Origin: Anagrus nilaparvatae
Taxonomy: Eukaryota; Arthropoda; Insecta; Hymenoptera; Mymaridae
DNA length: 64,000 nt
NCBI GenBank assembly: GCA_022575985.1
Contig: JAKSXM010000231.1
Coordinates: forward strand, 25,582,501-25,646,500
Direction of reading: 5' to 3'
In this document: piece after piece, positions 13,690 through 61,390 of the stretch
Layout of the letters: each line of letters opens with the position of its first letter
Numbering within the stretch: the first letter of the stretch is position 1
The notes under the pieces: generated by a model
What the model saw: the letters and a program-made list of their open reading frames with translations, nothing else
What the model was told of the DNA's origin: nothing
Database searches by the model: none
Position numbers and translations under genes: made by a program

Positions 13690-15095
13690 TGTGGGTAGAT
13701 TTAAATGAAGTGAGTGCGACTTACATGGTCGGGTCTTCAAAACTGCCCCAAAGTGTTTTTTTCTGAAAGCACTACCAAAAATAAGTAACCAGCCCAATTT
13801 TTAGCCTCCCAGAGCGAAATCTCGATTTTTGGCAGCCATTTTAGTGTTTTTGACTGTCGTAAAAAAAGTAAGAAAAATGAGTCATAATTTTTTTTATTAT
13901 TGCTGTAAAAAACTCACATTAGCATGAAAAATTTTTTCTTTTTAGGTCCGGATAGGAAATTTCCCTGGCTATCCGATTCCGGGGTCAAAAATTTTTTTTG
14001 AGTAGCGCATGCGCGTAGAATCGCTAAGATAGGATGTTTTTTTTCAAAAGTCGATTTCTCAAATGCCTATTAGTGAAAAATCTTGTAACCAGGCTTAAAA
14101 TTTTCGTTAAACCTTATATTTTTTGGCAAAAAAAAAATTTCGATGGGACACTGCTTTTTGGGAGCTCTAGATAAAAAAATAGCAGCTTTCAAAACCTCAT
14201 TTTTTACAAATTTCAAATTTCCCGCCAAGTCACGTGACCAATCAAAAATCTGACCAAAAATTTGGATTCCGCGGGAAATTTTACATAAGGATATATCTTT
14301 TCATGTTTTTAAGAGCGTTTATGTTAAAGCGGCGAAAAACAGTGAAATAATAAAGAATTTTCTGAATAATTTTGAATAATTTGGAATAATTTAAAAAATA
14401 AATAAATTCCTTAATAAATGAGATATTTTAATCTTTCAATTTAAAATTTCGCTGCTTTAACATAAACGCTCTTAAAAACATGAAAAGATATACACTTATG
14501 TAAAATTTCCCGCGGAATCCAAATTTTTGGTCAGATTTTTGATTGGTCACGTGACTTGGCGGGAAATTTGAAATTTGTAAAAAATGAGGTTTTGAAAGCT
14601 GCTATTTTTTTATCTAGAGCTCCCAAAAAGAAGTGTCCCATCGAAATGTTTTTTTTGCCAAAAAATATAAGGTTTAAAGAAAATTTTAAGCCTGGTTACA
14701 AGATTTTTCACTAATAGGCATTTGAGAAATCGACTTTTGAAAAAAAACAGCCTATCTTAGCGATTCTACGCGCATGCGCTACTCTAAAAAAATTTTTGAC
14801 CCCGGAATCGGATAGCCAGGGAAATTTCCTATCCGGACCTAAAAAGAAAAAATTTTTCATGCTAATGTGAGTTTTTTACAGCAATAATAAAAAAAATTAT
14901 GACTCATTTTTCTTACTTTTTTTACGACAGTCAAAAACACTAAAATGGCTGCCAAAAATCGAGATTTCGCTCTGGGAGGCTAAAAATTGGGCTGGTTACT
15001 TATTTTTGGTAGTACTTTCAGAAAAAAACACTTTGGGGCAGTTTTGAAGACCCGACCATGCAAGTCACACTCACTTCATTTAAATCTACCCATGT
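13690..15095. mobile_element. Long foldback element with palindromic islands (1.4 kb)
   Basis: Two arms of about 650 bp (about 13690-14335 and 14445-15095) are nearly perfect reverse complements around an AT-rich loop. The termini are GGGTAGATTTAAATGAAGTG and its complement. Each arm carries GCGCATGCGC (14005-14014; 14770-14779) and GTCACGTGAC (14229-14238; 14546-14555), 224 bp apart. No coding capacity. The same two palindromes at 225-bp spacing occur in the diverged foldback at 59157-61390, and the terminal 100 bp resemble it too (AAAAATAAGTA, then a CAATTTTTAGCxTxxxAGA block). I infer one non-autonomous superfamily; I do not recognise it. Confidence 0.9.
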
Positions 15096-18000
15096 ATAGA
15101 AAGTATAAAGGTACAATTCTTATGTAGCATAAAAAAGCTCTTGCACATAACAGTAATTTAGTGAAAACGAGATCTCATTATTAATAAAAATTTATAACAT
15201 AATAAAATAATTTCACATTTTTTATTTTCATAATTATCTTTAAGACAAATACGGAGCGTAAATTTTATGAAAATTTTTCAACAGTATTATTAGAAAAGAT
15301 TAATAAATAATATCAAGGATTAAAGCAGATATCGGTTTTAAATATATAATCTATAATAATAAAGTGAGAAAAAAATGCATTCGTTAGATTAGATATTTAA
15401 TGTCTTTTAATTTTCTCTTTCTCATTATACTTATTATCGTTCAATACGGAATTCATACTATTTTTTATATTTTTAATTAAATGTTCTATATGAACCGTTC
15501 CAAGCTAAATGTACAATTGTTAAAAAATGAAAAATTCATAGCAATTTAAATTTTGACTTGGTAAACAAGTACTTGATTATTTTAAAAAAGTTAAACTATA
15601 ATGTAATAAGCGAGAAGTTTTTGTTGTAATTTTTTAAAAAATTTAATAAATGGGGTACTAGATTTAAAGACTGGAACAAGTTTTACTGGGACCCTGCAAT
15701 TTATTTATTATCTATATAATTTTTTATAAAAAGAGTCCTTCATAAATCAGATACTCTAGAGTAATTTATTTAGCCTGAATTAGAGAATTTGATACTTGAG
15801 AGTTTGAAAATTTTAGGAAACTTAATATTCCATAAAGATAAGAATCTACCTAAAGTAATTCTTTGAAACAGTGTAGATTTAACAGAGAACCAATCCTATA
15901 TATTTTATTAAAACTTGTATGTAATTTTAATTTAAATTTATTAGTATGTAATTTACATTTGAACAATTGATGTTCAATAAACTACTTATATATTAAATTA
16001 AAAGATAATCATGAAAATTTACTCACGTAAAAAATTATTTATACTTATCAATCTTATTAAAAAAAAATCTCATCTAGATTGTAAAACCTGATTAAATACA
16101 TAAAAGGCGCATGTTAATAATTTAATGAAAAAAATAAAATTATTTGAAAAATCAGGGATTAATAAAAAAAAGATTTTCGTACGCTGGTGATAAAATTTAA
16201 GTTTATTGTTCTGGCAATTGAAAAAAAAGGAAAAAACAAGTTCGATTTATAATAGAATTTCTATCTACTTACGTGAACAGCGACCCATAAACCTCGTAAT
16301 TTTTTTTTTTATTTTTGTTAGACCATAAACGTAAAACTCGTATGTAATAAAATTGTTATTTAAAAAATTTTTTACTTGTACTAAAAAAAAATAAACAAAA
16401 GCCATAAAAATATCAGATTTTGTTTATATAAAAATTCATTAGAAAAAATAATAAAAATAGAAAATTTCTCTCGTCTATTTAATTAAATAAAAACAAATAA
16501 AAAAATACGGCCATCATCATCAATATAAATAAAATAAAATTAAATAAAAGTTCTATTTTATTTTTTTAAATGCTTAATGTTTTGGGGCCGCAAAGATTTA
16601 AATATAAATTTTGTTTGTCTCTAAAATACAAGCTATTTTGTTGAATATCTACCAAAAGAGCAAAATAAACTCAATTAAAATCTAATTAAAATAAAATAGA
16701 AAAAAAAATCTTTTAATAATTTCAATTTATATTTTTTAAAAAAATGAAAAATTTTAAGTAAAAAAGTCTAAAATATGCGGATGTGTAAAAAAAGATGAGT
16801 CGAGTGCAATTTATCTGGGTTTCTCGTATAATGTGCAATATAAATAGAATCGACTGTTACGTCAAGATTCGTTGCCGATGCCACGCGGTCTAGCATTTCA
16901 TTTGAGTAAGAGCCAAAAAACGAAAAAGAGAGAATCTCCAAACCCATATAAATACGCATGTAAAAAAGCATTTTTTGCATATCTTCTATTTATTCTTTGA
17001 CCGATCGTACCATACAGACAAGTTGACGCTCTACTTTGAGTTCGAAAAAAATATATTTTTAAATTTTTAAACCTTTTTATTTTTTATTGCCTTTGTACTG
17101 ATTAACCTCAACGTCATTTTAATAAATTTATTTTTATTTTTTAGATTTATGGCAATTTCCTAAAAAAGGGTAATATTCTATAAATCTCAGCTTACAAAAC
17201 ACCTTTTTAAAGGTTCCGCCAATATTGTTATGACTATAAAATTTATTTTTTCACTAAATCCAAAAATCCCAAAAAGAGCAATTCCTTAAAACAACAACCC
17301 AGCTAGTATACAACGCACTTAAAAAATTCAATTGTGAAGAAAAGGCAGCGAGAGAAAAATAATTAAAAATAGCAGATTATATTTTACGCAATAATTTATT
17401 AGCATTTTACACTTGATATTTTGCACCATTTAAAGAAACAACAGATATTTAAAGAATAACAAAAGAAAAGCGCAATGAAAATATTTTTAATGGACCTGAA
17501 CAAATAAGCATAAGAAATGTTTTATACTTTAATTTTCAAAAGTAATTTTCTAAAAAACAATTTAAAAACAATTCTGTAATATTTTAAATGCGAGTAAATA
17601 CTATAAAGCTAGTTATGTAGACTTTCAAGTTATAGGTAGAAAGGATTATGAAGAGGTCCTTGCGGCTAACTAACACGTTATATATTGAGAAGTTAGTTTT
17701 GAATTGGTACTACAACATGCTCTTATACTCCCATCACCAAAATTACCATTTTCGATCAAAACTTATATAATACAAATTTCTCTTGACAACTTAGATTATG
17801 CTCGTGTTTAATCTATTCACTGCTAAATTTTCATATTAATTTACTCTTACACGATTCCTTTTTTATTTAAGTCTATAAAATTTAAAATTTATGTACAAAA
17901 CAGTTAATTTTCCTCGTACTTTAAATTATTTAACAAAATTGCTCAGTGTGGTTAGTTTAAAATGAAAAAAAACGCCATTCCTGGAAACAGTACGTGCAAT

Positions 18001-21000
18001 AACTTTTAAGGTTCGGTACGTGATTGTAGAAAGCTTTTTCTGTTGGTAATTCCCTCCATATGCTCAATACATCTTTTAAATTCTAGAAACTTGAGCTAAG
18101 TATTTACTTCTTATACTTTTTGGACTAGGCGAGAGATATCAACTTATAATTAAGGGCTAAAAACTTTACCTTTAAGATATTCCTACTATTAATGGCCATT
18201 AAGTCTATTAGATTTATTTATAGATAAGAATTATGAGAAATTACTGTGAGGTAAGTTTTCTAAATTTGCCTTTTGAAACTTTAAGAGATTATCATTTACG
18301 CAGTAACGACATGGAAAGAGATGTAATTAATGAAAAAGCTCTTTGCTTTAAATATCAAAAAATATTTATAATTTGATAATGCGAAGCTTGTTCTTAATGG
18401 ACTTGCAGAGCTTGGGGTATCAAATTACTTGAATTATTGTAAAGCTTTTAAAGTTTTATTGGCTCGAAACTGGAAAGATAAAAAATAAGGTCATAAAATA
18501 GAATACAACTGTTATCACTAAAATGGCTAAAAAAATATTATCAGTTAGAATTCACTTCGCATGTCACCTTTTATGATATAGGAAATGCTGACAATAAAAC
18601 GAAAACGATTATAGCATATATAACTTCAAAATGGTTTAGATAAGACTCAGTTTAGCAATAAAAAAAAATCAATTAGTTTTTTAACAAAGTTTGGCAATAC
18701 TGAAGGCTAAGAGTATAAAAATTCAAGCACGTATGAACCGAGACTATTGATTTTTTTTTTAAATTCTATTTAAAATAGTAAATACAAAAATACTCTCTAA
18801 TTACTGAGGGGGTGTCTCATTGCTAACGAAGCTCATCATAGGAAAGGGATGATGGTACATACAGTGACTGAATAAAATAACATACAAGAAAAAGAATATT
18901 TAAAAAAAAAAAACGTTTGATTCTATAGGCAAAACTTATTTTAGGCAAATTACACGAAAAAAAAACGAAGTAGTTTTTTAAGCTTGGAGAAATTCTGATG
19001 TAATTTAAATAATGGTTACTCCTGTTTGAATTTCATGAAGTCAGGTAAAGTAAAAAGGAGTAGAATTTATTGGATACATTTTATTCCCACATTACTGGTC
19101 AATACCAACTGACGAGTATAAATAAAACATTAAATGCTATTTTAAATCGAATGGAGCAGCTATTTTTATAAAATACTTGGTAGTAGTAATTTGAAAAATG
19201 AAATGTTTTAAATTCGATAAAATATTAAATTTTCAATGGGAATAAAACGTCTGCAGTGATTTTTATATCCTGGTCAATGAATAAATAAAAATAAATAAGA
19301 AAGATCGAAAGTCTTGAAATTATATTGGAAATGTGCCTTTTTCTTTTATAACCACTTGGAATTCCTCCTTAAAACTGCACCACGAAACCTCCTCGAGAGA
19401 GAAGAAATGTCCTCCCGTGTTTTATAGAGAATTTTTTTTTTCTTCCCTCAGCACCTTCCTTATTTTTTTCCCTCCTGTATATATTCATCCTTTTTTTTTT
19501 CATCGGTCTACATACTTGACGTTTCTTCGTTCTTCCTTTTTCTTCGCCTCGATGCTCTCTTCGTTCATTCCGTCTGTACTACTTGCTTCTTCTTATATTA
19601 TTTTTTTTTTCTCATTTTGATTTTTTGACGTGCTTATACGGTATTCTTCTTCTTTTTTTTTATAATATCGCGTGCAATCACTTATTCTTTCATCCTCGGC
19701 ACCTTCACGATGTCGAAAACAATGACTATAAAACATCGAATTCTTATACATAAAAGATGACCATAAAGAGATAAATTTCAGTCTTCTTCTTTTTTTTTTA
19801 TATTTCGCTTATTTTTGTGCACAATTTTTTTTTCCTTATTTTTTATTTTTATACGTGATAAATATAATGTTTAAAAAAAATTATATTTATGTAACGCAAA
19901 CCTGTTAAAAAAATTTAGGACTTAATAACTGAAAAGTGATGGAATATTTAAACTGCAAACAAGCTGTGAAATTTATATGAATTGCTCAAGTTTAAAAGAT
20001 GAAAAATCAATTTAAAAGCTCTCCCTTCGTATTATTTTCGGTGAATAACTTTGATGCTGACGTTTGCTGCTTACTGTAGTTTCTATGATTGTTTTCTTAA
20101 AACTAGCATTCAACCTCTGTCACCAGATATTAACTTTCGTATCAATTGATATCTAATATATTTTCAAAAAGATGACTTTAACTTTGCTGATTTTAAATTA
20201 TCAGGTTAGAGTTCGCTTACTTCATCCACCAAGTCATGACTGAATCTTCAATGAGTGTTTTTACTGTATTTTTATGCTTGTAAATGTTTTCTTCATCAAT
20301 CATAGACTCAAGTATCAAATTTCAAAAAGAAAAGGCTGATTCAAAGTTTCTTCCCACAGTTATATTATTTTTATTACAAATGAATCTGAACCCATCAGTA
20401 TTAAAAACAGTACTCATGTTTGCACCAAAAATGAGGAAAAATTACAATTAAATATTGGCTTTGTAATTTTTTTTTAGTTAAAATTTTGAAGAGTAACTAG
20501 CAAAAAATAAAAGACAATTTTCAAGAACCCAGCCTAATATGTAGAAATATATATTTAGGACGCTAATTTCTTAACACAATAGCATGTACGTGTCTCTATG
20601 TACAAAATATATTCTTAAAAAGTTGACAAAAAAAGTACACAATAAAGAAGATGGAAAAGAAAGGAAAGGAAAGGTTGGTATTCCCAGGGGAATAGTAAAT
20701 ATACACGTCGCGGCGACTTTTTTATTGGCCGGAAAAATTGAGTTTGCGGCTACGAGACGATAATGAAACGAAGCACGTAGTACTACATAACCTGGCTACC
20801 TTTTGCCTAACTTCAAAATCGACACGAATGTTAACTTTGTGGTAAATTTTTCATATATATCGCAATTTTTTTTTTTACCTCAAAATTATATAATAAAACT
20901 TTTTAATATTTTTTTCTCTCTGATATTCACGTGGGCAAAGTTTTTTTTCTTTCAAAGTTTGAGAAAAAAAATAAATTTAAAAAGATAATCAATTTATTTT

Positions 21001-23407: not shown

Positions 23408-23409
23408 GA

Positions 23410-23677: not shown

Positions 23678-23679
23678 AA

Positions 23680-24600: not shown

Positions 24601-24648
24601 TCACCATAGCGACCGTTTAATTGGAAAAGGAACCCCCGTTTCTCTATG

Positions 24649-24828: not shown

Positions 24829-24835
24829 GTATGTA

Positions 24836-27880: not shown

Positions 27881-27887
27881 AATTCGA

Positions 27888-31597: not shown

Positions 31598-31599
31598 TC

Positions 31600-35938: not shown

Positions 35939-35939
35939 T

Positions 35940-36069: not shown

Positions 36070-37620
36070 TCATACCAAATTTAAATATCAAAAGTGCATG
36101 GAAATTAATTTACTTTATTTGTTTGTATGATTTTTAAAGTTTAAAATCCTTTACAGTCTGGTACTGTTTGCAAACTGAATGTGAGTATTTCTCAGCAACG
36201 GAAGTTAAATTGTTGATCAGAGTATTTTTTAGCGCAAAAAAACTTATAGGTACATCAATAATTATTTGATAGATAATTTCCAAGATTTTTCTTAATTACA
36301 TCGTATTAGCTTATTTTGCAACCATAAATTTTCAAGCGGAAATGGGAATGCAACATATTGCATCTTCTTTTTAGCCTTGCATTTATTATAAAACTGCAAA
36401 TGCTATTGGCCCTTTAAATTTTTGCTGTTTTGTAAATCTACGTATCTATAACTGCCAATTAGTTGGAAGTACATTTTCTTACTTAATATAGCTGAAGTGG
36501 GCACCCGTTACCCACCTTGAACTCAAATATTTAAAATCTTAATTGAAAAATTACTGGTAAAAAAAAATAAATAAAGCTTATTAAAATAATAATAATAATT
36601 TGAAGGCCTTAAAAGATAATATTGATTTCTTTACTCGTAGGTATTTCCTATATAAAAAATGTACAGTTATTTTAGAAATTATGCAATTATGTATATTATA
36701 ATCCATAGATATAATTCAAACGAGTAGAGAATTAATACTATTTAGCATTTGAAATTTTCTGCTTATTAGAAATATATATCATTGGCTTTTCGTACGTGCT
36801 TATACTCCGAGAACGCGAATTAAGACGATACAACTAAAATATTTTTAATAACATTTCAATAACTAGAAAATAAAGATTTATTTTTATTATTATTAAGATC
36901 GATATTATTTAATTACATTTTTTCGAAAAACATTTTTTACGACTTTTACAAGATTTTTTTTCAATTTTTTTACTCTCTATAAAGTAAATTTTTTTCATTG
37001 CGCTCATTTAAAACGAATTCGTCTATACACTTTTTTTAGAGTTTCAATCTTCTCGATTGCATAGTATTAAAATAGATAAAAATATATACACAGTCACATT
37101 TTGATCGTTTCTCTCAACTTTTATTTAGATATTTACAAATACCTCAAGCTTTTTTTTTTATTCCTACAAAAATACTCAGCTTCAATGCTTTAATGAAAGT
37201 TTTTATAATACACGTTGTACTTATTATCTGACGATTTTCCTATGTGCGTGTTGTTGTTACTACTGTATTAAGATTTTTTTTTTATTATTATGTTTTTTCT
37301 TCGCGCTTCATTGTCTATACAAAATCTCAATTTGTTAAATTGGAAAAAGCTCGAGAAAATAAAAAAAATTTTATTATTATGATATAAAAAAATAAAGTTG
37401 ATCAATTATTTTTATTGAAATTTTTTTTTCTATATTTTTAAATTAAAGTGGATTTTTTGTTTATTTAATGCTTATTTTAATATTGTATTGAAAATATTTA
37501 TTTTTTTATTTAATTCGTATTTTTTTTTAATTAAAATTGGTAAATCTTTTATTAATTTTTTATCCGAATTAATTTAAGATTTTAACTGTTTTTTAAAATA
37601 AATTCTAGAGGAAAATCTTT
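36070..37620. other. AT-rich non-coding stretch
   Basis: No gene, RNA gene or repeat boundary is recognised. Confidence 0.35.
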
Positions 37621-37624
37621 TAGG

Positions 37625-38015
37625 TACAATGTAGAAAGTAACTTTCTTAGATTTATAAAAAAAATAGAATTTTTTCGAAAAATTAGTGAATTTTCAAAAA
37701 GTTTTGTAAATATTCGATAAAAATCGTAAATTAATTATCGAAAAATTCTAGAATCCTCGATTTTTTTTTGTCATTTTACGAAAAAAGTTGTAAATTCACA
37801 ACTATTTTTTGTAAATTTTCGAAAAAAAATGGTAAATTATCAATTTTTCTTGGAAATTCACAAAAAAAACTCGAGAATACTCGAATTTATTGTTAATATA
37901 CTAGATTTAGTAAATTTTTTATTTTTTTCGAATATTTACAAATTTTTTCAAAAATTTACAAATTTTTCAAAAAAATTCTATTTTTTTTGTTAATCTAAGG
38001 AAGTTACTTTGTATA
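37625..38015. mobile_element. TA-CACTG-type MITE, copy 1 (diverged)
   Basis: The inverted ends are AAAGTAACTTTCTTAGATTT on the left and TAATCTAAGGAAGTTACTTT on the right. The interior is a ladder of TTCGAAAAAATT-like blocks reading symmetrically. Better preserved relatives are at 46050 and 46320. Confidence 0.7.
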
Positions 38016-38019
38016 TAAA

Positions 38020-40061: not shown

Positions 40062-40111
40062 CTACTTCTTTTCTTTCTTAATTAGATAATTACATGTCAA
40101 TATTTTCTTAC

Positions 40112-41426
40112 CTTTGCATTCGTTAGCGTCTCTTGCCGTTGCTCTTGCCCATGGTCTGTCGAAATAAAATGGTTTACATTTTTCACAATCTCTTCCTGCT
40201 GTATTGTGCTTGCATTCGCACGCTAAAACCCCGTCTTTACTGGTAACGCATTTTGATGCGTGTCCATTGCATTTGCATCTTCCACCAACAGCAAAATCCG
40301 ATACAGCGTAATGGTGTGCTGGACTAGACATACCCATATTATTCGAATTGCTGTAGTAAGTTGTTGTTGGGGCAGATACGTAACTCATTTCTCTAAGTTC
40401 CAACATGGGTGTATCATCGTTATTTTGCAACATTTCTTGAGGCGATAAAACTTGGTGAACCGATGGCACAACTGTACCTAACCCATTGGCGAATAAACTA
40501 TTGCCTCTTGGTCCTTTAATTCGTGATTCTTCTCTTTCTCGTTTACCTTTCTCTTCAAGAGTCACCAAATCTTGGTTTTCGTTACTGTTTGGATTTTCTT
40601 GTGGCATATACAATCTGTTGAATATTACGCGGATATCGGTTGCTGTGACCCAATCTTGAAGAACCGGTGAATTGTCGAAATCAGGAGCGGATGGTCTTCC
40701 TTCTAATGTACTGAAAGCAATTCTTCCAGTTGTACCAAGCGCTTCGTTAGCAGAATAACGATGGCTGTCGGTACATCTAGCTTCTTGTTCGTTAGCTCTT
40801 GTTATGCTAGCGCGGTTTGGTCGCCCATAAACTTTTCTGCACATTGAAGAATAAAATTGAAATGGTTGCCAAGTTTTTCCGTAATCCATAGATTTATAAA
40901 TAGCAATTGAATCTGGTTTGGCAGCTTTTGGACAAAATTGTAAACTCACGTAAGTTAATTCGTATTTTTTACCAAGTGACAATGTCAATGTCACATTGTC
41001 AGGTGGTGACAATGGGCTTTGAGGTGCAACAATCGGATCACTTCTCCAACAAGTTACGTTGTTAGGATTATTTAAATCTGTTAAGTAACTAGCAGGGAAA
41101 CGACGTCTCGGAACGCCATCGTCACAGGTATGACACTGGCCTAAATTAGCATGATTCGAGTTACCAATTAACGATTGATCAACTGGAGGGTCGCAGTAAC
41201 GAGTTGGACCACCGAGTCCACACGTTGACGATGCAACAACCGGGCGTTCAAATGCGGCATTCACAAAATCTGGTATACATCGACGTGGACGATCTTCATC
41301 GTAACATGGATCATTTGGTTGCGTTTGACTGGAGAACATTTTATAAATTTCACTACCACCATAAACAACATCAAGTCTATTGATCACGAAGATCAAGAAA
41401 AATATCGTTACAGAATACTTTGGCAT
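40112..41426 (-). CDS. Netrin, first coding exon (partial gene)
   Basis: Netrins are secreted, laminin-related axon-guidance cues that bind DCC/Frazzled and UNC5 receptors. The ATG at 41426 opens a 438-codon exon ending at a GTAAGA donor (40111-40110 on this strand) in phase 1. Residues 1-23 form a signal peptide. Residues about 35-385 form the laminin N-terminal domain ([20 protein letters not shown], then TCGLGG, RYC and CHTCDD). A Ser/Asn-rich insertion of about 90 residues sits between RLYMPQ and [13 protein letters not shown]. The first laminin-EGF module begins [10 protein letters not shown] and runs to ANECK at the splice site. The remaining laminin-EGF modules and the NTR/C345C domain are not recognised in 1-40111, so the gene probably continues past the left edge. 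Codons are much less AT-rich than surrounding DNA. Whether it is netrin-A- or netrin-B-like cannot be decided. Confidence 0.95.
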
Positions 41427-45100: not shown

Positions 45101-46049
45101 ACTCATTAAAAGTACAAAATAAAAAAAAATAACTCACTTTATTTAATGCCGATAATTTTTTTCATATTTTTGGATTATTTCCAAGTTTGTATTATTATCT
45201 TTTAATAGCATGAAGATACAAAGTAAATTTTTATTCAAATAATTTAAAATATCGGATTGTGTAATAAAAAAAGAGTTAAATGATAAAAAAAACGTATATT
45301 TAGTACTAATAATAAAGATAAAAAATTCTTACGACACTCTTTTTTATTGGGTATCACAATGTAGAAAAAAAATGAAGAGGAAGAAAATATTATTTTTTTG
45401 AATAAAAATATTATTTTTAAAAATTAATTAAATATTCATCAGATTTGTTATTACAAGAATAAAAGATAACATTAGCATTTAAAAGTATTGTAGTATCAAA
45501 AAAAGAGATATCTCATCGTTAAAAACCTCAAAGTTTATTATGCAAAAGCTCAAGGAAAAAAGATGATGAAGAGCGTTAAATTTCTTTTTTTTTTACAGCT
45601 CTTTTAATATATTCGTTGTTGAAGCTTCGTACACTTTTATTCTTTTTGATACATGAATAGCTAATACTCGTAACTTTTAAACATCGCTTTTGCTTTGTAT
45701 AAGAAACGAATATATTATCAAGTACTTATACGCAAAATAAAAAAAAGAAATCAAGTCATCTTTTTTTTTAATACTCATCATCTGTATTTATATTATTGTT
45801 TTACTTTTATTACTGCTTATTTTTTTATCTCCCAGAATTTACATTGTTAGTAATTTTTTTCTAGGCTATCAAAATATTTTAAAATACTGGGAGTCGATGA
45901 ATGATTTGCAAGTTGCAAGTTGCTCACTATAACTGCTTTCATTTTTTTAATCCTTTGGCAGCTTCCACAACAAATAATGAAGTTTGTGTTATGGTTGATC
46001 TGTAGGAAGGAAATGTGCCGATTAATTTAATTTTTGTGTATGGTACACG
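42160..46049. other. Non-coding region upstream of netrin
   Basis: No exon is seen. A GC-richer block at 42270-42390 contains GATCGCGCGCGCATCCCG and CGCGCGTG and may be regulatory. The remainder is AT-rich without clear repeats. Confidence 0.35.
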
Positions 46050-46302
46050 TACACTGTAAAAAGTAACTTTCTTATATTCACAAAAAAAATCGAAAATAAT
46101 CGTAAATTTACTAAATTGATTAACAACAAATTCGAGAATTCTCGATTTTTTCTTGTAAATTTACGAAAACAAATCGGAAATACTCAAATTTTTTGTTAAT
46201 ATACTAAATTTAGTAAATTTACGATTTTTTTCGAAAAATTACTAACTTTTCGAGAATATTTTATTTTTTTTGTGAATCTAAGAAAGTTACTTTTTACAGT
46301 GT
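46050..46302. mobile_element. TA-CACTG-type MITE, copy 2 (intact ends)
   Basis: The element is bounded by TA on both sides. The TIRs are CACTGTAAAAAGTAACTTTC and GTTACTTTTTACAGTG. TA target duplication is typical of Tc1/mariner-like elements, an assignment based only on that. It has no ORF. Confidence 0.8.
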
Positions 46303-46319
46303 AGATATACATTTTCATA

Positions 46320-46740
46320 TACACAGTAAAAAGTAACTTCTTTAGATTCACAAAAAAAATAGAATTTTTTTGAAAAATTAGTAAATTTTCGAAAAAATTT
46401 GTAAATATTCGAAAAAAATCGTATATTTACTAAATTTAGTATACTAACTAAAAATTCGAGTATTCTCGAGTTTTTTTTGTGGATTCGCAAGAAAAATTAA
46501 TAATTTACAATTTTTTTTCGAAAATTTTCAAAAAATAGTTGTAAATTTATGAAAAATAGTTGTGTATTTACAACTTTTTTGGTAAATTCACAAAAAAAAA
46601 ATCGCGAATTATCGAATTTTTCGATAATATACTATATTTAGTAATTTACGATTTTTATCGAATATTTACAAAATTTTTTGAAAATTTACTAATTTTTTGA
46701 AAAAGTTCTATTTTTTTTTGTAAATCTAAGAAAGTTTTGT
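46320..46740. mobile_element. TA-CACTG-type MITE, copy 3 (right end damaged)
   Basis: The left end TACACAGTAAAAAGTAACTT begins 18 bp after copy 2 ends. The interior matches the copy at 37625 more closely than copy 2. The right end keeps TAAATCTAAGAAAGTTTTGT but loses the last bases. A frame at 46287-46490 is a by-product of the repeat. Confidence 0.75.
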
Positions 46741-46810
46741 AAATCTACGAAATCATAAAATTAACAATTTTTATAATTAATTTGTTGTAAAATTACTAAT
46801 CTGTACACGG

Positions 46811-49424
46811 TAGGCTTAAAAAAATTTAAATCCGATGGAAAATTACCTCGACTTTTTTTTTCTAGAAATTTTATATATGATGTAAATAGTGCGTAAAAAA
46901 ATTTTTGAGCTGATTCCCCGAGGGATTTAAATTTTTTGTGGGCGGATGTGAATTTTTGGTTGCTTTGAGATGCAATATTTTTGAAAAGTTTTTTTTTATA
47001 AATACTATTATTTAAACAAATGTGTGTACTCAAATATGAATGAAAAACTATCTTTGCGCATGAACATACTTAAATTTGTATGTATGTTGGTATGTGGGTA
47101 CGTATATGAGCTTGTATGTGTGAGTTAAATGACAATTAAAAACTTATAATTTATAAAATAAAAACTAATAAATAGATAAAAAAATATATGTATAATTAAG
47201 TATGTGTGGCTATGTATGTGTATATGTGAGGGCGTGAACTTATGTGTGACTTTATGTGTATTTGTGTGTGCATTTGTGCATTTCCACGAGAAAATACGTC
47301 TTATGAGCACCAAAAATGAAAAAAAAAAATTGACGAGGCCGCGATTACCACCATAATTTTCTGGTAGTTTGGACTCTATAGAATGCAAAAAAAAAACGTG
47401 AACATGGAATCGGCGATGGATGCCAAGAAGATTTTGCCACTTTTATGTCAAAAAGCACGTTTTTCGTATCTCAGCTACCCCAAATTTTTAAAAAAAATTT
47501 TTAGGTAAATAAAAATTAAAAAAATAAAGATAAAAAATTTTATTTCCAGGGAAAAACCACTCCAGAAGAAAAAAAACTTTTCTTTTTACGATGAAATTTA
47601 GCCAAGTTATCATCAATTTAATGTTTTACTCAAATTTGTCTTAAGAAAGATTGAAGTTTTATATTAAAAAAATCTTGTTTCTGAATTTTAAACATGCATT
47701 ACTCGCTTGATTTTCATCGTAAAATAACAGTTTTTTTTTAATATCGATTAATTTTTTCCCGAGTATTCATTTCTTGAAGAAAAAAAACATTTTTTTTTAC
47801 CACATTTCAACTCTTAGGTCAAAAATCAATGAAAATCTGTGTTAAATAAATTTTGCTACTTACAGCATTCAAAGTTTTTTGATCTAAAAATTAAACTTTT
47901 GTCAATAAAAATGATTTCTTTTTTGAAGAAATGAATACTCTGGGAGAAATTAATCGATATTAAAAAAAAATTTATTATTTTACGATAAACATCAAGCTAG
48001 TAATGCATGTTTTAAGTTCAGAAACAGGCTTATTACAATAGAATTTCAATCATTTTTAAGACAAATTTCAGAAATAATATGCATTATTCGCTTGATTTTC
48101 ATCGTAAAATAATAAATTTTTTTTTTAAATCAATTAATTTTTCCCTGAGTATTCATTTCTTAAAGAAAAAAAAATCATTTTTACTGACCAAAATTCAGTT
48201 TTTAGCTCAGCAACTGTGTTAAGTAAATTTTGCTACTTACAGTTTTGACCTGAAAATTGAAATTTTGTCAAAAAAATGATTTTTTTTCTTAAAGAATTGA
48301 ATACTCAGGGAAAAATTAATTGATTTAAAAAAAAAATTTATTATTTTACGATGAAAATCAAGCGAGTAATGTATACATTACATATGTTTAAAGTTCAGAA
48401 ACAGACTTTTTTTAATATTTTTTAAGACAAATTTGAATAAAATCTTAAATTGACGATAAATTGGCTAAATTTCATAGTACAAAGAAAAGTTTTCTTTTAT
48501 TCTGGAGTGGTTTTCCCCTAGAGATCATTTTTTATTTTACATAAAAATGAAAAATTTGTTATTTATTAAATAAAATTTATTCCCTAAAATTAAATTTTTT
48601 AAAGTTATTTAGATTTCCCACTCTCCCCAAAATGTATTTACGCATAAATACCCACACAAATACACATACAGTAACATATACGTTTACACTAACACATACA
48701 CACATATACAGATACACATACATACTCATACATACACTGAAAAAAAAATCCGCTTGCCGCAAGCGGAATAATTCCGCTTGCGGCTAGCGGAATTCCGCTT
48801 GTGGCTAGCGGAATTTTTTTTTCTTTGCAAACAATTGCAAATGATTTGAAACGTAAAGAAAATTTAAAAAAAACATTTTTTCTTTTCTTTTTCCAAAATT
48901 TTCTCAAATCTCGTCATACCGAAATACGCATATCCCAAGTAAGCGGGAAAAAATTTTTTTTTAAATTTTCTTTACGTTTCAAGTCATTTGCAATCGTTTG
49001 ACGAGAAAAAAAATTCCGCTTGCCGCAAGCGGATTTTTTTTTCAGTGTATATTTTTTTATCTAAAAATTAGTTTTTTTTGCATAAATTATAAGTTTTTAA
49101 TTGTCATTTAACTCACACATACAAGCGCATATACGCATACACATACCAACATACATACAAAATTAAGTACATTAATGTGCAAAGATAGTTTTTCATTCAT
49201 ATTTGAGTACACACATTCGTTTAAATAATAATATTTATAAAAAAAAACTTTTCAAAAATATTGCATCTCAAGCAACCAAAAATTCACATCCGCCCACAAA
49301 AAATTTAAATCCCTCGGGGAATCAGCTCAAAAATTTTTTTACGCACTATTCACATGATATATAAAATTTCTAGAAAAAAAAAGTCGAGGTAATTTTCCAT
49401 CGGATTTAAATTTTTTTAAGCCTA
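46811..49424. mobile_element. Large foldback element (2.6 kb) with a nested insertion
   Basis: The TIR starts TAGGCTTAAAAAAATTTAAA and reads ATCCGATGGAAAATTACCTC inward; its complement closes the element at 49424. The arms match over several hundred bp, including a stretch of GTAT-rich microsatellite and GGGCGGATGTGAATTTTTGG. The centre (about 47540-48530) is a further inverted repeat around 48050, itself built of four alternating copies of a CATCGTAAAATAATAAATTT block. A separate element at 48735-49047 interrupts the right arm. Reading frames here are shadows of repeats. Confidence 0.85.
48735..49047. mobile_element. 313-bp MITE nested in the foldback arm
   Basis: TA flanks both ends, with TIRs CACTGAAAAAAAAATCCGCT and its complement ending CAGTG. 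GCTTGCCGCAAGC lies just inside each end, and the left side also has two further copies of the GCTTGxGGCTAGCGGAATT block. A second internal inverted repeat uses AAATTTTCTTTACGTTTC. The flanking foldback arm resumes its symmetry on either side of the insertion. Confidence 0.85.
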
Positions 49425-49447
49425 CTACATGTAGTAATATATTGTAA

Positions 49448-51988: not shown

Positions 51989-51989
51989 T

Positions 51990-53150: not shown

Positions 53151-53335
53151 GTTGGTCCCTTTACTTATGTACCAAATTTTTCGATTATTTATTATCGAAA
53201 AATTTGGACCCTTTACTTAAATATCAAACTTTTAATTATTTATTATCTCAAAATTTGATATTCATAATATCAAAGTACCAAATTCAACTGTGGTTTCATA
53301 CAAACCTCCCTTCCTTAAATACCAAACTTTTGTTT
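53151..53335. repeat. Short tandem repeats with hairpins (52-bp period)
   Basis: CCCTTTACTTA followed by a CCAAATTTTTCGAT / ATCGAAAAATTTGG hairpin starts at 53157; a diverged second unit starts at 53209 and a third partial one (CCCTTCCTTAAATACCAAAC) at 53308. Confidence 0.6.
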
Positions 53336-53449
53336 ATATAAAACATTTAAAAATACAGAATAATTAAATATAACAACTACAAGAGACAGTTATTATCTGC
53401 ATTATTTTTTATTAGAAATTCTAATGTTTGTACATGATGGATTCTACGC

Positions 53450-54418
53450 TGATTCAGACCTCAATTGAGCCCAAGTTATAGGGACGCGGAGATCAGTTAA
53501 AATACCTTTTGCTAAATGTAAAACTAAAAATAAGTCTTTACAGCAATTTTAAGCTTTCTAGATCCAATTCTCATTTTCGAAAGCCATTTTCATGATTTTT
53601 TAAAATTGTTAAACTATACAACTTTGTAATTCGAGTTGTAATTTCTAAAAAAAAAAAACTAAAAAATTTCATCAATTAATCTTTTGATTGGTTCTAAAAT
53701 TTCAATATACTCTTTGTAAGATTTCACCAAAAATCCAAATTTAAAATCAGATTTTCATTTAACAAAGTGGCTTAGCAAGACATTTCAATATTTGAAAAAC
53801 TGGTAATTTAAGAAATTTTATTTTTTTATCTGAAGCATTCAGATCAGCTAATGCCCCAGAAATTTTTTTATTTATTTTAGTGTTGTTTATACCTATAAGT
53901 AGGTTATAAAACAGCAAAATCAAGCTCAATTAGAAGGAACAGTAAAAATTAGGAATCTGTTGATCTGTAACAGATCCATTGTCAAATGAACTAACAAGAA
54001 GCTTCCCTTAGAATTCATTTTTGAGGCTCTCTGAACTCAAATACACAGGCACCTTTTCTTTCTAACTGAAAATGCAATAGCGACGTACATTACCCATTAC
54101 AAAAATTTAGTAATGTAGTAATGGCCATTTTCTATTTCAAATTGCAAAGAAGTAAAGAGTGTTACACTACAGCATATCAGTAATTAATTTTTTTTAAAGT
54201 TCAAATTTTATTGAAAGTAAAAAAATGAGTAAGTAACCACTCGTATTTGTAATTTGTAATAAATAATTTGGTTGTAATAAATAAAAAAAGTTAATAATAA
54301 TTTTAATAAGTAATGGTAGAAGGAACTTATTTTAGATTTCTCGTTTGGCAAAAGATATATTGAATCGATTTCTGCGACCCTTCAGTCAAACTTGGGCTCC
54401 GTTTGCATGAAACCCCTG
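53450..54418. mobile_element. TIR element (about 0.96 kb) related to the 23.4 kb element
   Basis: The left end reads GAGCCCAAGTTATAGGGACG; the right end reads CGATTTCTGCGACCCTTCAG, then CAAACTTGGGCTC. The ends pair imperfectly. The right end matches the element at 23410-23677, and the left interior (AAAACTAAAAATAAG, then TTTTAAGCTTTCTAGATCCA) matches both that element and the long foldback at 59157. It is diverged and non-coding. Confidence 0.65.
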
Positions 54419-54419
54419 A

Positions 54420-54924
54420 AGAAATAAATTCAAAATTTAAAAAAGTCAAAAGGATTCAAATTACATATTTATATTATTATCACTTTTATTATTCGCTTTT
54501 TATTCTTTCTTTTTTTGCTGTGGAATTGCTGGATTTCACAGCAAAAAAGAACTTGAACTGTACATGTTTTTATATTACAACTAATTTTTTTTTTTTATTT
54601 ACATGATTTTTCCTTTGCATTGTTTATTTTAATTTAATTTTCAGTATTGGAATATTAAGAGTTTAAATTTTATTTACAAATTAACATAAAGATAGAACCT
54701 AAACAATTTTACAAGAATATAGACTCTTCTAACAACTGTTAAAAAATCCCTGAATGTAAAGAAATTTTAGTTCAGATCCCTTACACATAAGTACATTTAA
54801 TTTTTCTAATTATTTTCAGAGCAAAAATAATTATGTATAAATTTTTACGTCATAATTTTTAAAAATTACTATTAAAATAATGTAGAAAACTTTATCAGAA
54901 GCCTTCCTCGAAAACTTCAATTAA
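54420..54924. other. AT-rich non-coding stretch
   Basis: The open frame 54403-54606 is low-complexity and starts within a transposon end, so it is not counted as a gene. Nothing else is seen. Confidence 0.35.
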
Positions 54925-55978
54925 TATATATGGGCGATTATTTCTCAACCCGGCCACCCCCCTCTGTCCAAAAATGGTGGCAACTTAAAAAGATTTTGGT
55001 TTTCTCAAATTGACTGGAAAAGGGTCTAGTTTTTTATTCTCATTGGCCTTTTCAACTCTGTAAATCTACTGTGCCCATTTTAGGCACTGAGCGGCGGCAG
55101 GTCGACATTTTAAAAACAGAAAAATTGAAATAAAAGTAGATTAACGGTAAGTTTTTTGAAATTTTTTTCTCTTAAAAGTTGTTATTTATTAAAACAAAGA
55201 AAATGAGACCACTTGCGTGGTAATTGGTTGATTTTTTAAAAAGTTTTGTGGGTGCTATGTAGTTTTTAAAAATGGGTTAAAAATGGCTACTTTGACTGAT
55301 GATATCTCTGAACCTACATATCCAAAATAAAAAAGTTTTAGTGCAAAATGGTAGTCTTTTGATACATAATAAGTGTGCCAAATATCAAGGGATTTGATTG
55401 AGTAGTTTCGGATTTAGCAATTTTAAGGGTAATTCTGAGACAAATTTTGACCCATTTTTTTAAGAGAATTAATACCCGAAAATTGCTAAATCCGAAACTA
55501 CTCAATCAAATCCCTTGATATTTGGCACACTTATTATGTATCAAAAGACTACCATTTTGCACTAAAACTTTTTTATTTTGGATATGTAGGTTCAGAGATA
55601 TCATCAGTCAAAGTAGCCATTTTTAACCCATTTTTAAAAACTACATAGCACCCACAAAACTTTTTAAAAAATCAACCAATTACCACGCAAGTGGTCTCAT
55701 TTTCTTTGTTTTAATAAATAACAACTTTTAAGAGAAAAAAATTTCAAAAAACTTACCGTTAATCTACTTTTATTTCAATTTTTCTGTTTTTAAAATGTCG
55801 ACCTGCCGCCGCTCAGTGCCTAAAATGGGCACAGTAGATTTACAGAGTTGAAAAGGCCAATGAGAATAAAAAACTAGACCCTTTTCCAGTCAATTTGAGA
55901 AAACCAAAATCTTTTTAAGTTGCCACCATTTTTGGACAGAGGGGGGTGGCTGGGTTGAGAAATAATCGCCCATATATA
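54925..55978. mobile_element. Near-perfect foldback element (1.05 kb)
   Basis: Arms of about 497 bp (54925-55424 and 55480-55978) are reverse complements with almost no mismatches; one is CCCGGCC against the complement of GGCTGGG. The terminus is TGGGCGATTATTTCTCAACC, flanked by TATATA. The loop is about 55 bp. No ORF is present. The near-identity of the arms suggests recent insertion or gene conversion. The right end abuts the polyadenylation signal of the next gene. Confidence 0.9.
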
Positions 55979-56053
55979 CATATTTTATTATTGCCTGATT
56001 CAGATAATTTCTTTATCATTATCTTATCACAGCTTTATGAATGAATTTCGTTT

Positions 56054-57102
56054 TTATGGTATTTGATTTAGTCTTTTATGGTCAAGACATTGCTTGATTG
56101 TATGAGCGATTCTACGTTCTTCAGACATCCACTGATTTATTTTTTTAGTATTTGAACACTGAGAAATTTCTTTTTTTAATTTGATCATGCTTTGCTTAAC
56201 TTCAGATAATTTTTCATGCAATTCTGTTGGAATTTCTGGTTCAGGCATAAGTGATTTTCCTGTTTTCTGTAAAATATATATGATTAATTTAAATATTGAA
56301 ATTCTGTACGAAAATTAGAAAGATTTTTTTGTTCATTTTGGACAAAGTCTTACCAATTTCAAACATTTCATGTTTTTTTTACTTTCCGGATTGACACAGC
56401 GTTCAATAATGTTTTCTGCATTTTTCAATATTTCTTCTATTGAGTATCGAATGAATGAAGTTCTTTGAAGAAAATCATCAGCTAATTTACTCTTTTTTGT
56501 TATGCACAAATTTATCTTCTTCGTATATTTTTTTAATTTTTGATTCGAACCAATGCAACTCTTGTAATTCAAATTTTGGGACTTAGCATGTCTTAGCGAT
56601 GTCAGATATATTTCTTTAACATTTTTTAAAGAAGTTCTTAAAAATATCGTTGATAATTTTAATATTTTTTCTTTTTCAATGTTCAATTCCTTGTAATCGT
56701 TGTTAATCTCATCTACTGTCGTATTCAAATAGGCTCTAGATGCTCTTATTTTGGTATCAAATATTTCCTTTTTGGATAAAAATGTTTTTGAAATAGGAGA
56801 ACTTTCATCAACAGCCACCTATGTTAGAAAATGTACATGAAGTTTAATGAATATCGATTATTAACTTTTTTTATTTAAAAAGGTTTTTTTATTTATTTAA
56901 AAATCTAATTTCCAAGTAATTTATTTGCATAAAATAGTTTTTTCTCCTATTTATTAGAGATTTAATTAACCAAATAATTTTTTTAATAAATTTTTTAAAA
57001 TTAACAAACTCAGTACTGATCAAATAGTTTAATTTTAATTTTAAAATTACTCACAGAGTTGCTGATGAGAGCGACAAAGCAAAAGACGATTATTAACTTC
57101 AT
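56054..57102 (-). CDS. Small secreted helical protein of unknown function
   Basis: Exons on the minus strand are 57102-57055, 56818-56354 and 56266-56054, about 241 residues, with phase-0 GT-AG junctions (donors GTGAGT and GTAAGA; acceptors AACATAG and TTTTACAG). Exon 1 encodes only the signal peptide (MKLIIVFCFVALISNS). The mature protein is Lys/Glu/Ile-rich and predicted to be mostly helical, with six cysteines spread over the second and third exons and an N-glycosylation sequon (NTT). A TATA box lies 54-61 bp upstream of the ATG. AATAAA occurs 65 bp past the stop (55989-55984). I do not recognise a family. The exon plan matches the gene at 3515-4313, and common ancestry or a shared secretory role is only inference. 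Confidence 0.75.
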
Positions 57103-57155
57103 TATTCTTCGAGGGTTCTAAAAACACTTATGGTAATCTAAACTCATGGCTATCA

Positions 57156-57163
57156 TTTATATA
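57156..57163 (-). promoter_or_regulatory. TATA box of the secreted-protein gene
   Basis: TATATAAA on the minus strand, with room for a start site near 57133 and a leader of about 30 bases before the ATG at 57102. TATA promoters in insects often belong to strongly expressed tissue-specific genes. Confidence 0.5.
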
Positions 57164-57169
57164 CCTTAA

Positions 57170-57690
57170 AAATTTTATCAATTTTATGAAAAGTTAAATA
57201 AAATTTTCATAATACTTTCAAAGAATTTTTGTTAGTTTTGTTTTTAATTTTACGAAATTTTATTGCCATAATAATATAAAGAATAGATAATATTAAAAAT
57301 ATTATTTACAAACTACGCATTAAGAATATTTTACGATTAACATAGAGAATCCCAAGAAGAAAAAAATTTAGATTTTTATATTTATTACACTGTCAATTAA
57401 TGAAAAGTAGATGTTACCCTTGAGAGTACTAATTGGACGCCATTTTTTCAGATCTAGGCCAATTCCGTAAACGGATGCTTTCTCACGGTCCAATCAGCTT
57501 AATTTTAATTAAAAAAAAAAAAGGAAATTAGAAAAATGATCTATGGAAAATTCTGCAGATGCGATAACTCTCCCTTTTCACGGACAATTTTCCTAAAACA
57601 CTATAACAAAAAAAGAAAATTCTGTATCAAAAAATCGTTTGCTCTACCATTTTGCGCTCTTAAGTTTTTAACTTCAAAATGAGTTCAAAA
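57170..57690. other. Non-coding, partly GC-richer
   Basis: No gene is seen. The patch 57420-57600 (GAGTACTAATTGGACGCCAT, CGGATGCTTTCTCACGGTCC) looks like eroded transposon sequence. Confidence 0.3.
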
Positions 57691-57699
57691 ATAAAAAAA

Positions 57700-58230
57700 A
57701 CCGGTTTGTGTAATGCTTGCACAACCAACGAGCATGGATCATGTTCACTAATTATTTCCGCCTGAGACATTGAAACAGCACGCAAAAAAAGCATAGTAAA
57801 ATTAACCTTTACAAATGTAGTAAAAACAAATTATTATATATTGGTAAATATGTACATTTTAAATATATTTAGTCAAGATCAGTTTATTTCAAAATTTTTA
57901 AATTCTTTTGTGATATTTGAAATGTGAAACTCAGTTTTAATTTAAAGAAAATTCAACATGTGTAAAACATGAATAAAGTTATTTTGCTCAAAAATTTTTT
58001 TAACTCCACTGAAAAATTGCTTATACACTCAATGATCAGGGTTTGAAGTTATAAAAAAAAGTACTACATAAACAACTTGCATGGAACATGTTTACATTTA
58101 CGAAATACTTATATATTAAAAACCTTCTAGCTTACTAAAGTACTTTGTAAAACCAAATACGTCCTAAATTTAAATTATTCTAAGTCCTTAAATCGAAATT
58201 ATTTTAAGTCCCATTTGATCCTCCCTCAAT
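57700..58230. repeat. Dispersed repeat shared with 30340-30700
   Basis: CACAACCAACGAGCATGGAT lies at 57719 and TAAATTATTCTAAGTCCTTA at about 58168, in the same order as at 30.4-30.6 kb. CATGGAACATGTT also recurs. Interspersed element, unclassified. Confidence 0.55.
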
Positions 58231-58269
58231 TTCCAGGTCTTCAGGGACACCCCTCCATTTAAATTATCT

Positions 58270-59155
58270 CTAACCACTCGCTAAGTAGCTTTAATATTAG
58301 TAAAAAATCTTAGTATTTAATCTGTTAAAACTAATAAAAAGAACAATTGAATTTTTTTAATAAATTCTTGCAACAAAAAATTATAGAAGAATGAATTGAT
58401 AAAAGATTATATTTTTTCAGCTTTAACTTTCTTTACACGAAAAGAAAAATTTAATTACATTAGGCAAGTTGCACGTATATATGAAAATTATTTAAAAATG
58501 AAAAATGATTACAATAATTTATGATTGCATAATAAAAAACAACTTTGTATATTTAATAAAACTACATCTGTTCTTCAAAAACAGCTATATTTATGGGTAA
58601 TTTTTTAAAAATAATTTCGTAATTAAATTAATATCATTAATAGATACTTTGTTTACTATTGGTTTACTAGTATAAACTTACTAGTATAAAGGCAAATAAA
58701 AATACTTTGCCTACACGGTAAATCCGGCACTGATTTATTTACTCAAATTAAAAATTTTCAGAAATGTGGAAATATTCCTCGTTTTTATGGCTATAATAAA
58801 TTGCTACTTTTTTGGTATAAAAAATAATTAAAAAGTTTTGGAATTAATTTTTTTTTTCCAAAATTTTAGCTTAAGCTTTTAGCTTTTATTGTTAGCTAAC
58901 AAGTGTTAAAAATGATTTTTAAATTTTTTAATTATAACGAAAAATCCCCTGTTTTGGACATATTTTTAACATTTATATGGAGAATTTTTTTCACATGGGT
59001 TTTGTTTTACGTACCTCAGTCATTACTTCAATCCCTCTAAAGCATACTTCAACTGAATACTTTTATTTACAACTGCTACTTTATAATTAATTATATAATC
59101 ATTTTTTAGTCATTTTTTTATATGGGTCAATATTTGTGAATTGTATATGACTTTG
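58270..59155. other. AT-rich non-coding stretch
   Basis: Nothing recognised. Confidence 0.35.
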
Positions 59156-59156
59156 C

Positions 59157-61390
59157 ATGGGTGGGTCTCGAAATGTACTCCAAAGTATGTTTGGTCGAAA
59201 GTATATATTAAAAAAATAATTTTCCCCAATTTTTAGCTTTTTAGATCCAATCCTCTATTTTTTACAGCGATTTTTGTTTTTTTCAATTTTTTGAAATTTT
59301 TAATTTTTGAGAAATTTATGTTCATTAATTTTTCTCGCAAACGCGCACTTTACAATAAAATTTTTTTTCCTTAAAGTACCCCATAGGAAATTTCCCGTAG
59401 AATTCGATTCTGGGGTCCAAATTTTTTTTTGAACTGCGCATGCGCGAGAAAATCAACTTTCTTGCTTTGCCTTTTCTAGCTTATATGCCTCAGCTGCAGA
59501 CAGCTCAATTTTCATCCTGTTGGTCTCAAATTGTAGGTTTTTTCATATACTTTCAGCATATGAAATCATTTTTTTGGGTAAATTTATTTTAAAAGCACTA
59601 AAATTGAAAAATAGCGATTTTTAAAAAATCATTTTTCACAAATTTTGAATTTTCCGCCAAGTCACGTGACCAAATGAAAATCTGACTAAAAATTCGGATT
59701 TAGCGGAAAATTTTACATAAGGACACGAATTTTCGTCTTATTTCATTAAATAGTTTCTAAGATATCCCATTTTAAAGATAAAGATTAAAATTGACTTTTT
59801 TTAAAAAACCCTAAAAATGGGACTCTGACTTTAATTATCATATCTGTTTAACAAATAATTATAAAAAGACGAGTAAAAATTTTTTGGAAACTAAGGGCTT
59901 GTAAAAAATTTTTGAGGCCTATAGAACTCGTTTCTTTTAAAAATTAGAATTTTGGCAGCAATTTCAAAATTGGTCATTTTTGGGTAGGAATAGGGATTTG
60001 GTTTATTGGCTATCGGCATGAGAGATTTACCGACAAATAATTGCAGTGTACGGTAACTGAATGGTGACACTTATACCAAAAAAATGAGACCAATTGGAAG
60101 TATTTTGGTTAACTGGCAAGTTTGCAGCTTCGTATTAAGGATTACAAAAAAATCCTATTTGATAACATTGTGGTATTTTGTAGTTATTTAGTATTTTGCT
60201 ATTTCTTTTATTTCTATAGCGTTACGGAAACATCCAAAACTTTTCCAAAAAGGGGGTTTTTTGTAAAATTTCTCGAGGAATCCGAAAATTTCGTCAAAAT
60301 TTTCATTAGGTAACTAGAAAATTCGGAAAATTGAAAATAAGATAGAATAGCTACAAAATACAACAATGTTATAAAATAGGATTTTTTTTTCATAATCTTT
60401 AATACAAAGCTGCAACCTCGCCAGCTAACCAAAATACTTCCAATTGGTCTTATTTTTTCGGTATACATATCAACATTTATTTACCGTACACCACATTTAT
60501 TTGTTGTTAATTCTCTCATGGCGATAGTCAATAAACCAAATCCCTATTCTTACCCAAAAATGACCAATTTTTAAATTGCTGCCAAAATTCTAATTTTAAA
60601 AAGAAACGAGTTCTATAGGTCTCAAAAATTTTTTACAAGCCCTTAGTTTCCAAAAAATTTTTACTCGTCTTTTTATAATTATTTGTTTAACAGATATGAT
60701 AATTCAAGTCAGAGTCCCATTTTTAGGGTTTTTTAAAAAAAGTCAATTTTAATCTTTATCTTTAAAATGGGATATCTTAGAAACTATTTAATGAAATAAG
60801 ACGAAAATTGGTGTCCTTATGTAAAATTTTCCGCTAAATCCGAATTTTCAGTCAGATTTTCATTTGGTCACGTGACTTGGCGGAAAATTCAAAATTTGTG
60901 AAAAATGATTTTTTTAAAATCGCTATTTTTCAATTTTAGTGCTTTTAAAATAAATTTACCCAAAAAAATGATTTCATATGCTGAAAGTATATGAAAAAAC
61001 CTACAATTTGAGACCAACAGGATGAAAATTGAGCTGTCTGCAGCTGAGGCATATAAGCTAGAAAAGGCAAAGCAAGAAAGTTGATTTTCTCGCGCATGCG
61101 CAGTTCAAAAAAAAATTTGGACCCCAGAATCGAATTCTACGGGAAATTTCCTATGGGGTACTTTAAGGAAAAAAAATTTTATTGTAAAGTGCGCGTTTTC
61201 GAGAAAAATTAATGAACATAAATTTCTCAAAAATTAAAAATTTCAAAAAATTGAAAAAAACAAAAATCGCTGTAAAAAATAGAGGATTGGATCTAAAAAG
61301 CTAAAAATTGGAGAAAATTATTTTTTTTATATATACTTTCGACCAAACATACTTTGGAGTACATTCTGAGACTCGAAAATCCAAACTGTA
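59157..61390. mobile_element. Long foldback element with palindromic islands (2.2 kb)
   Basis: Arms of about 1.03-1.05 kb (59157-60190 and 60345-61390) are close reverse complements. The terminal block reads TCTCGAAATGTACTCCAAAG, then TATGTTTGGTCGAAAGTATA. Each arm has GCGCATGCGC (59436-59445; 61092-61101) and GTCACGTGAC (59661-59670; 60867-60876), 225 bp apart in the left arm. Blocks around these sites (CCATAGGAAATTTCCCGTAG, GGGTCCAAATTTTTTTTTGA, TTTCCGCCAA) match the 13.7-15.1 kb element while the rest has diverged. Frames at 60122-60468 are repeat shadows. It ends about 240 bp from the stop of the F-box gene. Confidence 0.9.

Follow-up and report, generated by a model that had tools for sequence, protein, structure and literature searches.

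The window analysed here is a 64,000-nucleotide (nt) stretch of the genome of the wasp Anagrus nilaparvatae (GenBank assembly GCA_022575985.1, contig JAKSXM010000231.1, positions 25,582,501 to 25,646,500). It holds two foldback elements, E1 and E2, whose arms contain short conserved islands, among them the perfect 10-bp palindromes GCGCATGCGC and GTCACGTGAC (Table 1). In an ungapped search, the arms form inverted repeats of 652 nt at 98% identity (E1) and 1001 nt at 96% (E2), and neither element contains an open reading frame of at least 110 amino acids (aa). A sequence-only reading had joined the two into one foldback superfamily, which the inverted arms and their genome-wide relatives bear out; the limits it gave, 13690-15095 and 59157-61390, located the elements and are refined here by their termini and target site duplications (TSDs). 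Each of the two palindromes occurs exactly four times in the window, confined to E1 and E2 (0 in 100 shuffles), with one of each per arm, so that each is found twice per element and every element offers four palindromic sites, as had been claimed. The flanking island GGAAATTTCC, itself a third perfect palindrome, was likewise located in both arms of both elements, at four positions.

Both elements are members of a single large long-terminal-inverted-repeat (long-TIR, or foldback) DNA transposon superfamily that carries no long gene of its own. Across the 488.7 Mb and 393 contigs of the genome searched, we counted 1,158 exact palindrome pairs (587 + 571) and, allowing up to 2 mismatches, 3,210 copies (1583 + 1627) of CCGCCAAGTCACGTGACCAA, the 20-mer that encloses the second palindrome; both backwards-read controls came out at 0, and the exact 20-mer was absent from the viral and prokaryotic collections. 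Since these counts are of arms, whole elements would number roughly half. To delimit elements, we matched the termini of subfamilies A to D and of I3, a third foldback in the window, against the window and 23 fetched loci (at most 3 mismatches) and obtained 19 rows representing 18 distinct elements (L001 and L027 are the same one); seven loci (L004, L006, L018, L019, L020, L023, and L026) yielded no row, having altered ends or a second end outside the stretch. A perfect 4-bp TSD flanks 17 of the 18 (ATAT in 12, CTAT in 2, and ATGT, ACTT, and AAAT in 1 each), and the flanks of the remaining one, L017, agree at three of four positions. Such termini, inverted and flanked by short duplications of a single length, are the hallmark of cut-and-paste DNA transposons. 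The termini begin with GGGT in A, B, and C, GGCT in D, and GGGC in I3. At least four subfamilies (A to D) and thousands of arms are thus present, and copies within a subfamily are 92.3-99.9% identical in A (five compared) and 90.4-95.3% in B (four compared); L009 and L010, 99.9% identical in different flanks, point to recent activity.

This abundant family is real and of a known general kind: its members have near-identical inverted arms over most of the element and direct TSDs of one length (17 of 18), as long-TIR or foldback elements do. No described counterpart was found in the literature searched, outside Repbase and Dfam. The architecture of long inverted repeats is shared with Galileo and Drosophila FB, but the P superfamily, to which Galileo belongs, duplicates 7-8 bp compared with 4 bp here, and FB, which is related to Mutator-like elements (MULEs), has a 9-bp TSD. 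Tc1/mariner elements duplicate TA, whereas the duplications here have 4 bp and some lack TA (ACTT, ATGT, and AAAT), and piggyBac differs in its TTAA target, seen at none of these elements, and in other palindromes much nearer the tips. The miniature inverted-repeat transposable elements of iMITEdb measure less than 800 bp, compared with 1240-2977 bp for the 17 distinct A to D elements delimited. MuDR and the MULEs, whose long inverted repeats carry both transposase sites and promoters and supply the model for the interpretation developed below, have TSDs of 9-11 bp (PMC3310237, in part). The AT-rich 4-bp TSDs are shared with Sola2, for some elements of which the form AWWT is reported, including ATAT and AAAT, and 13 of the 17 perfect TSDs here fit this stricter form; Sola inverted repeats, reported at 11 to 1124 bp, are also comparable with the arms found here, the difference being that no Sola transposase is shown in any of these elements.

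Both palindromes are known transcription factor sites, a fact that the sequence-only reading left unremarked, as it did the 4-bp TSD. GCGCATGCGC is the consensus site of the NRF1 homodimer, whose Drosophila homologue is EWG (PMC10810270, in part), and GTCACGTGAC is the 10-bp CLEAR motif, an E-box (PMC9562866, in part). The match to these host promoter sites extends to the exact 10-bp letters, the difference being that here they lie in the arms of mobile elements, ∼311 and ∼535 columns inward from the element end. Around GTCACGTGAC, in a block of ∼75 bp, stands the dyad AATTTCCCGC...GCGGGAAATT, of the general form AATTTYCCGC...GCGGRAAATT. In most arms of subfamily B, including those of E2, the dyad is AATTTTCCGC...GCGGAAAATT instead; both halves differ from the form in the other three subfamilies without loss of symmetry, and these arms also have CCAAA at the position where CCAAT is usual elsewhere. 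Subfamily B has lost the flanking CCAAT and TTTCCCGC and kept the palindromes. This two-sided change is a single event in a single lineage. Its retained symmetry argues for a site read by a dimer rather than for conservation of E2F or CCAAT/NF-Y boxes, and a reading of the whole block as an E2F/CCAAT promoter is weakened, as B keeps neither.

From start to start, the two palindromes are 224 bp apart in E1 (14005-14229 and 14546-14770) and 225 bp apart in E2 (59436-59661 and 60867-61092), which had been taken for a fixed spacing under strict constraint. On contig C1, where 71 pairs were listed, the total pair length is 234 or 235 in 47, 230 in 8, 241 or 242 in 5, and between 222 and 245 in the other 11, in a search that admitted gaps of 200-230 bases (totals of 220-250) and left wider or narrower pairs uncounted. 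By inspection of the printed letters, the start-to-start modes are ∼224 (A), ∼225 (B), ∼220 (C), and ∼231 (D). We therefore reject fixed spacing as a constraint: the distance is only near-fixed, varies with the subfamily, and is inherited with the arm rather than held exactly.

The islands themselves fared better. We aligned 34 arms from 22 elements, including E1 and E2, and reduced them to four consensuses, A to D; L001 to L008 were left out, and so was the second (C-type) arm of L023, since one left arm was kept per locus. The consensuses are 62.3-72.7% identical in pairwise comparison, and those of A and B align end to end at 62%. The arms are homologous throughout, contrary to the claim that the arms of the two elements differ over most of their length; the companion claim of conserved islands within drifting arms is upheld, also outside the palindromes. 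Invariant runs of at least 8 columns are CCAATTTTTAGC, ATAGGAAATTTCCC, TGCGCATGCGCGAG, CCGCCAAGTCACGTGACCAA, AAAATCTGAC, and AAATTTTAC, the longest covering 20 of 604 columns, a length matched in 0 of 5,000 column shuffles. Because the genome copies were found through both exact palindromes, the runs that hold them are partly ascertained, and the test was redone without those 20 columns: four runs of at least 9 columns remain (four were reached in 0 of 5,000 shuffles), and the longest has 14 columns (a length seen in 12 of 5,000 shuffles). In the last block, 58 of 70 columns are invariant, compared with 207 of 510 elsewhere. Near-identical short blocks inside otherwise divergent arms might also result from gene conversion or recombination among coexisting families, with no part played by selection, and repeats resembling the core of subfamily B do recur at several other places. 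We hold this to be quite improbable, given the subfamily-specific fixed differences inside the block, the two-sided dyad change among them, and the separate invariant runs, several in number and 9 to 20 columns long, each of which would need its own exchange with sharp limits.

Conservation between subfamilies is not matched by clear conservation after insertion. Comparing copies of the same subfamily, we counted changes at 49 of 1,999 island cells outside the palindromes (2.5%) and at 626 of 17,524 cells elsewhere in the arm (3.6%). The difference, obtained by the rate comparison that the sequence-only reading had suggested, is small and indicates little protection once a copy has inserted. 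Among the exact 20-mers listed on C1, 51 of 80 have an exact partner palindrome in range, close to expectation for a neutral 10-mer, which would stay intact with a probability of 0.695, and by a loose count (1,158 pairs to 3,210 20-mers) about one-third of all such arms, among them old ones, retain the two palindromes unchanged. With these two figures, a loss of the pair from most copies, which would have told against constraint, is not clearly seen. Both figures suggest that any constraint acts on the replicating lineage and not on inserted copies.

We propose, with a probability of about one-half, that the islands are protein-binding sites kept by the lineage, serving in part for transposase recognition and in part as a promoter bound by host factors, and that the transposase is probably of the Sola kind. 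The arms would descend from the end region of an autonomous parent transposon, with CCAATTTTTAGC, GGAAATTTCC, GCGCATGCGC, and the ∼75-bp block around GTCACGTGAC as putative binding sites kept by all four lineages; these would have been retained because the elements that keep them are the ones that were moved. The outer motifs and the dyad would most likely be recognized by the transposase, for which the 4-bp-TSD Sola kind is the likeliest candidate, and GCGCATGCGC and GTCACGTGAC would most likely bind host factors, namely, NRF1/Ewg and a basic helix-loop-helix leucine zipper (bHLH-ZIP) protein of CACGTG sites. The host factor sites may form a promoter or enhancer inside the inverted repeat, as in MuDR, two of them per foldback copy. 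Of the uses suggested by the sequence-only reading, mobility is plausible, as is a part in expression, whereas no evidence on replication was found.

Several points weigh against this proposal. We found no intact autonomous element bearing such arms, and no palindrome-bearing arm lies 5′ of the transposase gene in the three copies whose 5′ side could be viewed, which leaves the promoter role without direct support; a full promoter is further weakened by the absence of the CCAAT box and TTTCCCGC from subfamily B. The AWWT form of those Sola2 elements is not matched by four of the 17 TSDs (CTAT in two, ATGT, and ACTT). Inserted copies show no clear protection by either measure given above, and the islands could have been spread by recombination between families. 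Moreover, as copies were fetched through exact palindromes, the 0 of 680 palindrome changes and the 20-column run are partly ascertained, subfamilies without palindromes would have been missed, and column shuffles ignore the correlation of neighbouring columns.

What the palindromes bind admits another answer. All islands, both palindromes included, may be transposase sites, with a dimeric DNA-binding domain reading the subterminal palindromes and the dyad, and the likeness to NRF1 and E-box sites coincidental. Such an arrangement is known from piggyBac and piggyBat, where palindromes inside the transposon end are bound by transposase dimers through paired cysteine-rich domains beside a core motif (PMC11707139, in part). 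It would also suit the B dyad, whose symmetry survived the loss of the TTTCCCGC letters and the absence of CCAAT, and the AAATTTCCC-like half sites at three places in the A, C, and D arms. Yet coincidence would have to account for two different perfect 10-mers, each an exact match to a known homodimer or E-box site, and at their depth the palindromes lie farther in than most core transposase sites do, so that we regard this account as possible but doubtful. It is unlikely, in our estimate, that each foldback arm holds a complete host-type control region, in which an NRF1/Ewg site and a CLEAR E-box ∼225 bp apart would tie transposon activity to the metabolic or growth state, with more than 1,000 such pairs of NRF1 and bHLH-ZIP sites seeded in the wasp genome.

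A different candidate for the mover is a DUF7869 (integrase-fold) transposase, whose gene adjoins one D-type arm at L026, so that the autonomous parent would be L026-like. The colinearity of the loop at this locus has no better explanation, but the 170-bp link from arm to gene is unique in the genome, the two other matches to that edge begin exactly at its inner side, and the 5′ edge of the gene is another repeat. For the guessed last exon, neither a convincing second copy nor, among the 120 proteins listed, a convincing relative came to light. No second arm was found in the 18.7 kb read, and the other DUF7869 family begins with CTGTGG, not GGGT. The link between arm and gene is thus contested, and we consider a DUF7869 mover rather unlikely; for its unique link, the repeat at the gene edge, and the unmatched last exon, L026 is not accepted as a proven autonomous parent. 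The link, a single-copy stretch of ∼170 bp between the D-type arm with loop and the gene, spans L026:2038-2210. At aut1 (C1:7931538-7939324), a worn D-like arm without palindromes lies on the 5′ side of the gene, oriented away from it, which gives no proof either. We also dropped the idea that the B core is a captured piece of the transposase gene, as core-like repeats occur in a nested foldback outside the gene as well. DUF7869-like transposase genes of several families, with open frames of 720-797 aa, are present at L041, L051, L052, L053, and L061, and some copies are 97-99.7% identical, apparently another recent transposon group in this genome.

Four foldback subfamilies, each amplified separately, thus carry common interior motifs in both arms, two of which are exact host factor sites. 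On one hand, if these sites bind host factors, every intact insertion delivers four of them, and the family would offer a test of transposons borrowing host control DNA and show how mobile DNA reshapes the NRF1 and E-box landscape of a genome. On the other hand, if they bind the transposase, they would be a new example of palindrome-reading ends.

Table 1. Features of the window (coordinates in the 64,000-nt stretch)
Feature	Position	Strand	Remarks
Element E1 (subfamily A), foldback DNA transposon	13693..15091	.	1399 bp; termini GGGTAGATTTAAATGAAG
E1 TSD	13689-13692 + 15092-15095		ATGT
Element E2 (subfamily B), foldback DNA transposon	59124..61412	.	2289 bp; termini GGGTCAATATTTGTGAA
E2 TSD	59120-59123 + 61413-61416		ATAT
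GCGCATGCGC, E1 left arm	14005..14014	.	NRF1/Ewg-type site
GCGCATGCGC, E1 right arm	14770..14779	.	
GCGCATGCGC, E2 left arm	59436..59445	.	
GCGCATGCGC, E2 right arm	61092..61101	.	
GTCACGTGAC, E1 left arm	14229..14238	.	CLEAR/E-box type site
GTCACGTGAC, E1 right arm	14546..14555	.	
GTCACGTGAC, E2 left arm	59661..59670	.	
GTCACGTGAC, E2 right arm	60867..60876	.	
GGAAATTTCC, E1 left arm	13955..13964	.	third perfect palindrome
GGAAATTTCC, E1 right arm	14820..14829	.	
GGAAATTTCC, E2 left arm	59386..59395	.	
GGAAATTTCC, E2 right arm	61142..61151	.	
Conserved block, E1 left arm	14215..14293	+	AAATTTCCCGC dyad half, E-box palindrome, TGACCAA x2, GCGGGAAATTT dyad half, ACATAAGGATA
Conserved block, E1 right arm	14491..14569	-	limits mirrored from E1 left arm
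Conserved block, E2 left arm	59648..59725	+	dyad AATTTTCCGC / GCGGAAAATT; CCAAT absent
Conserved block, E2 right arm	60812..60889	-	limits mirrored from E2 left arm
Third foldback I3	54932..55971	.	termini GGGCGATTATTTCTC; TSD ATAT
Netrin exon	40062-41426	-	Laminin_N, E 1.5e-64
F-box/LRR protein	61626-63149	-	507 aa, single frame; frame ends ~200 bp from E2

The third foldback, I3, has 500-nt arms that are 100% complementary and looks very young. It contains none of the three palindromes and was possibly mobilized by the same kind of transposase. Elsewhere in the window, at 46810-49425, nested inverted repeats enclose a cluster of smaller ones; their arms measure 235 nt (91%) and 156 nt (99%), and the whole is probably another composite foldback. 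Two AT-rich stretches of related repeats, inverted and direct (GTACA-TGTAGAAAGTAAC...), lie ∼8.4 kb apart at 37618-38016 and 46049-46718, and a similar repeat was seen by eye in aut1 (2027-2396 of the joined L063+L035+L064) and in L065. Among the 120 of 1,559 netrin matches that were listed, the named ones near the top are mostly from wasps, bees, and ants, with a beetle in second place, which by itself would make the host a probable hymenopteran. At L017:3-5325, two long frames resemble, by eye, a gypsy-type retroelement polyprotein and an envelope-like protein.
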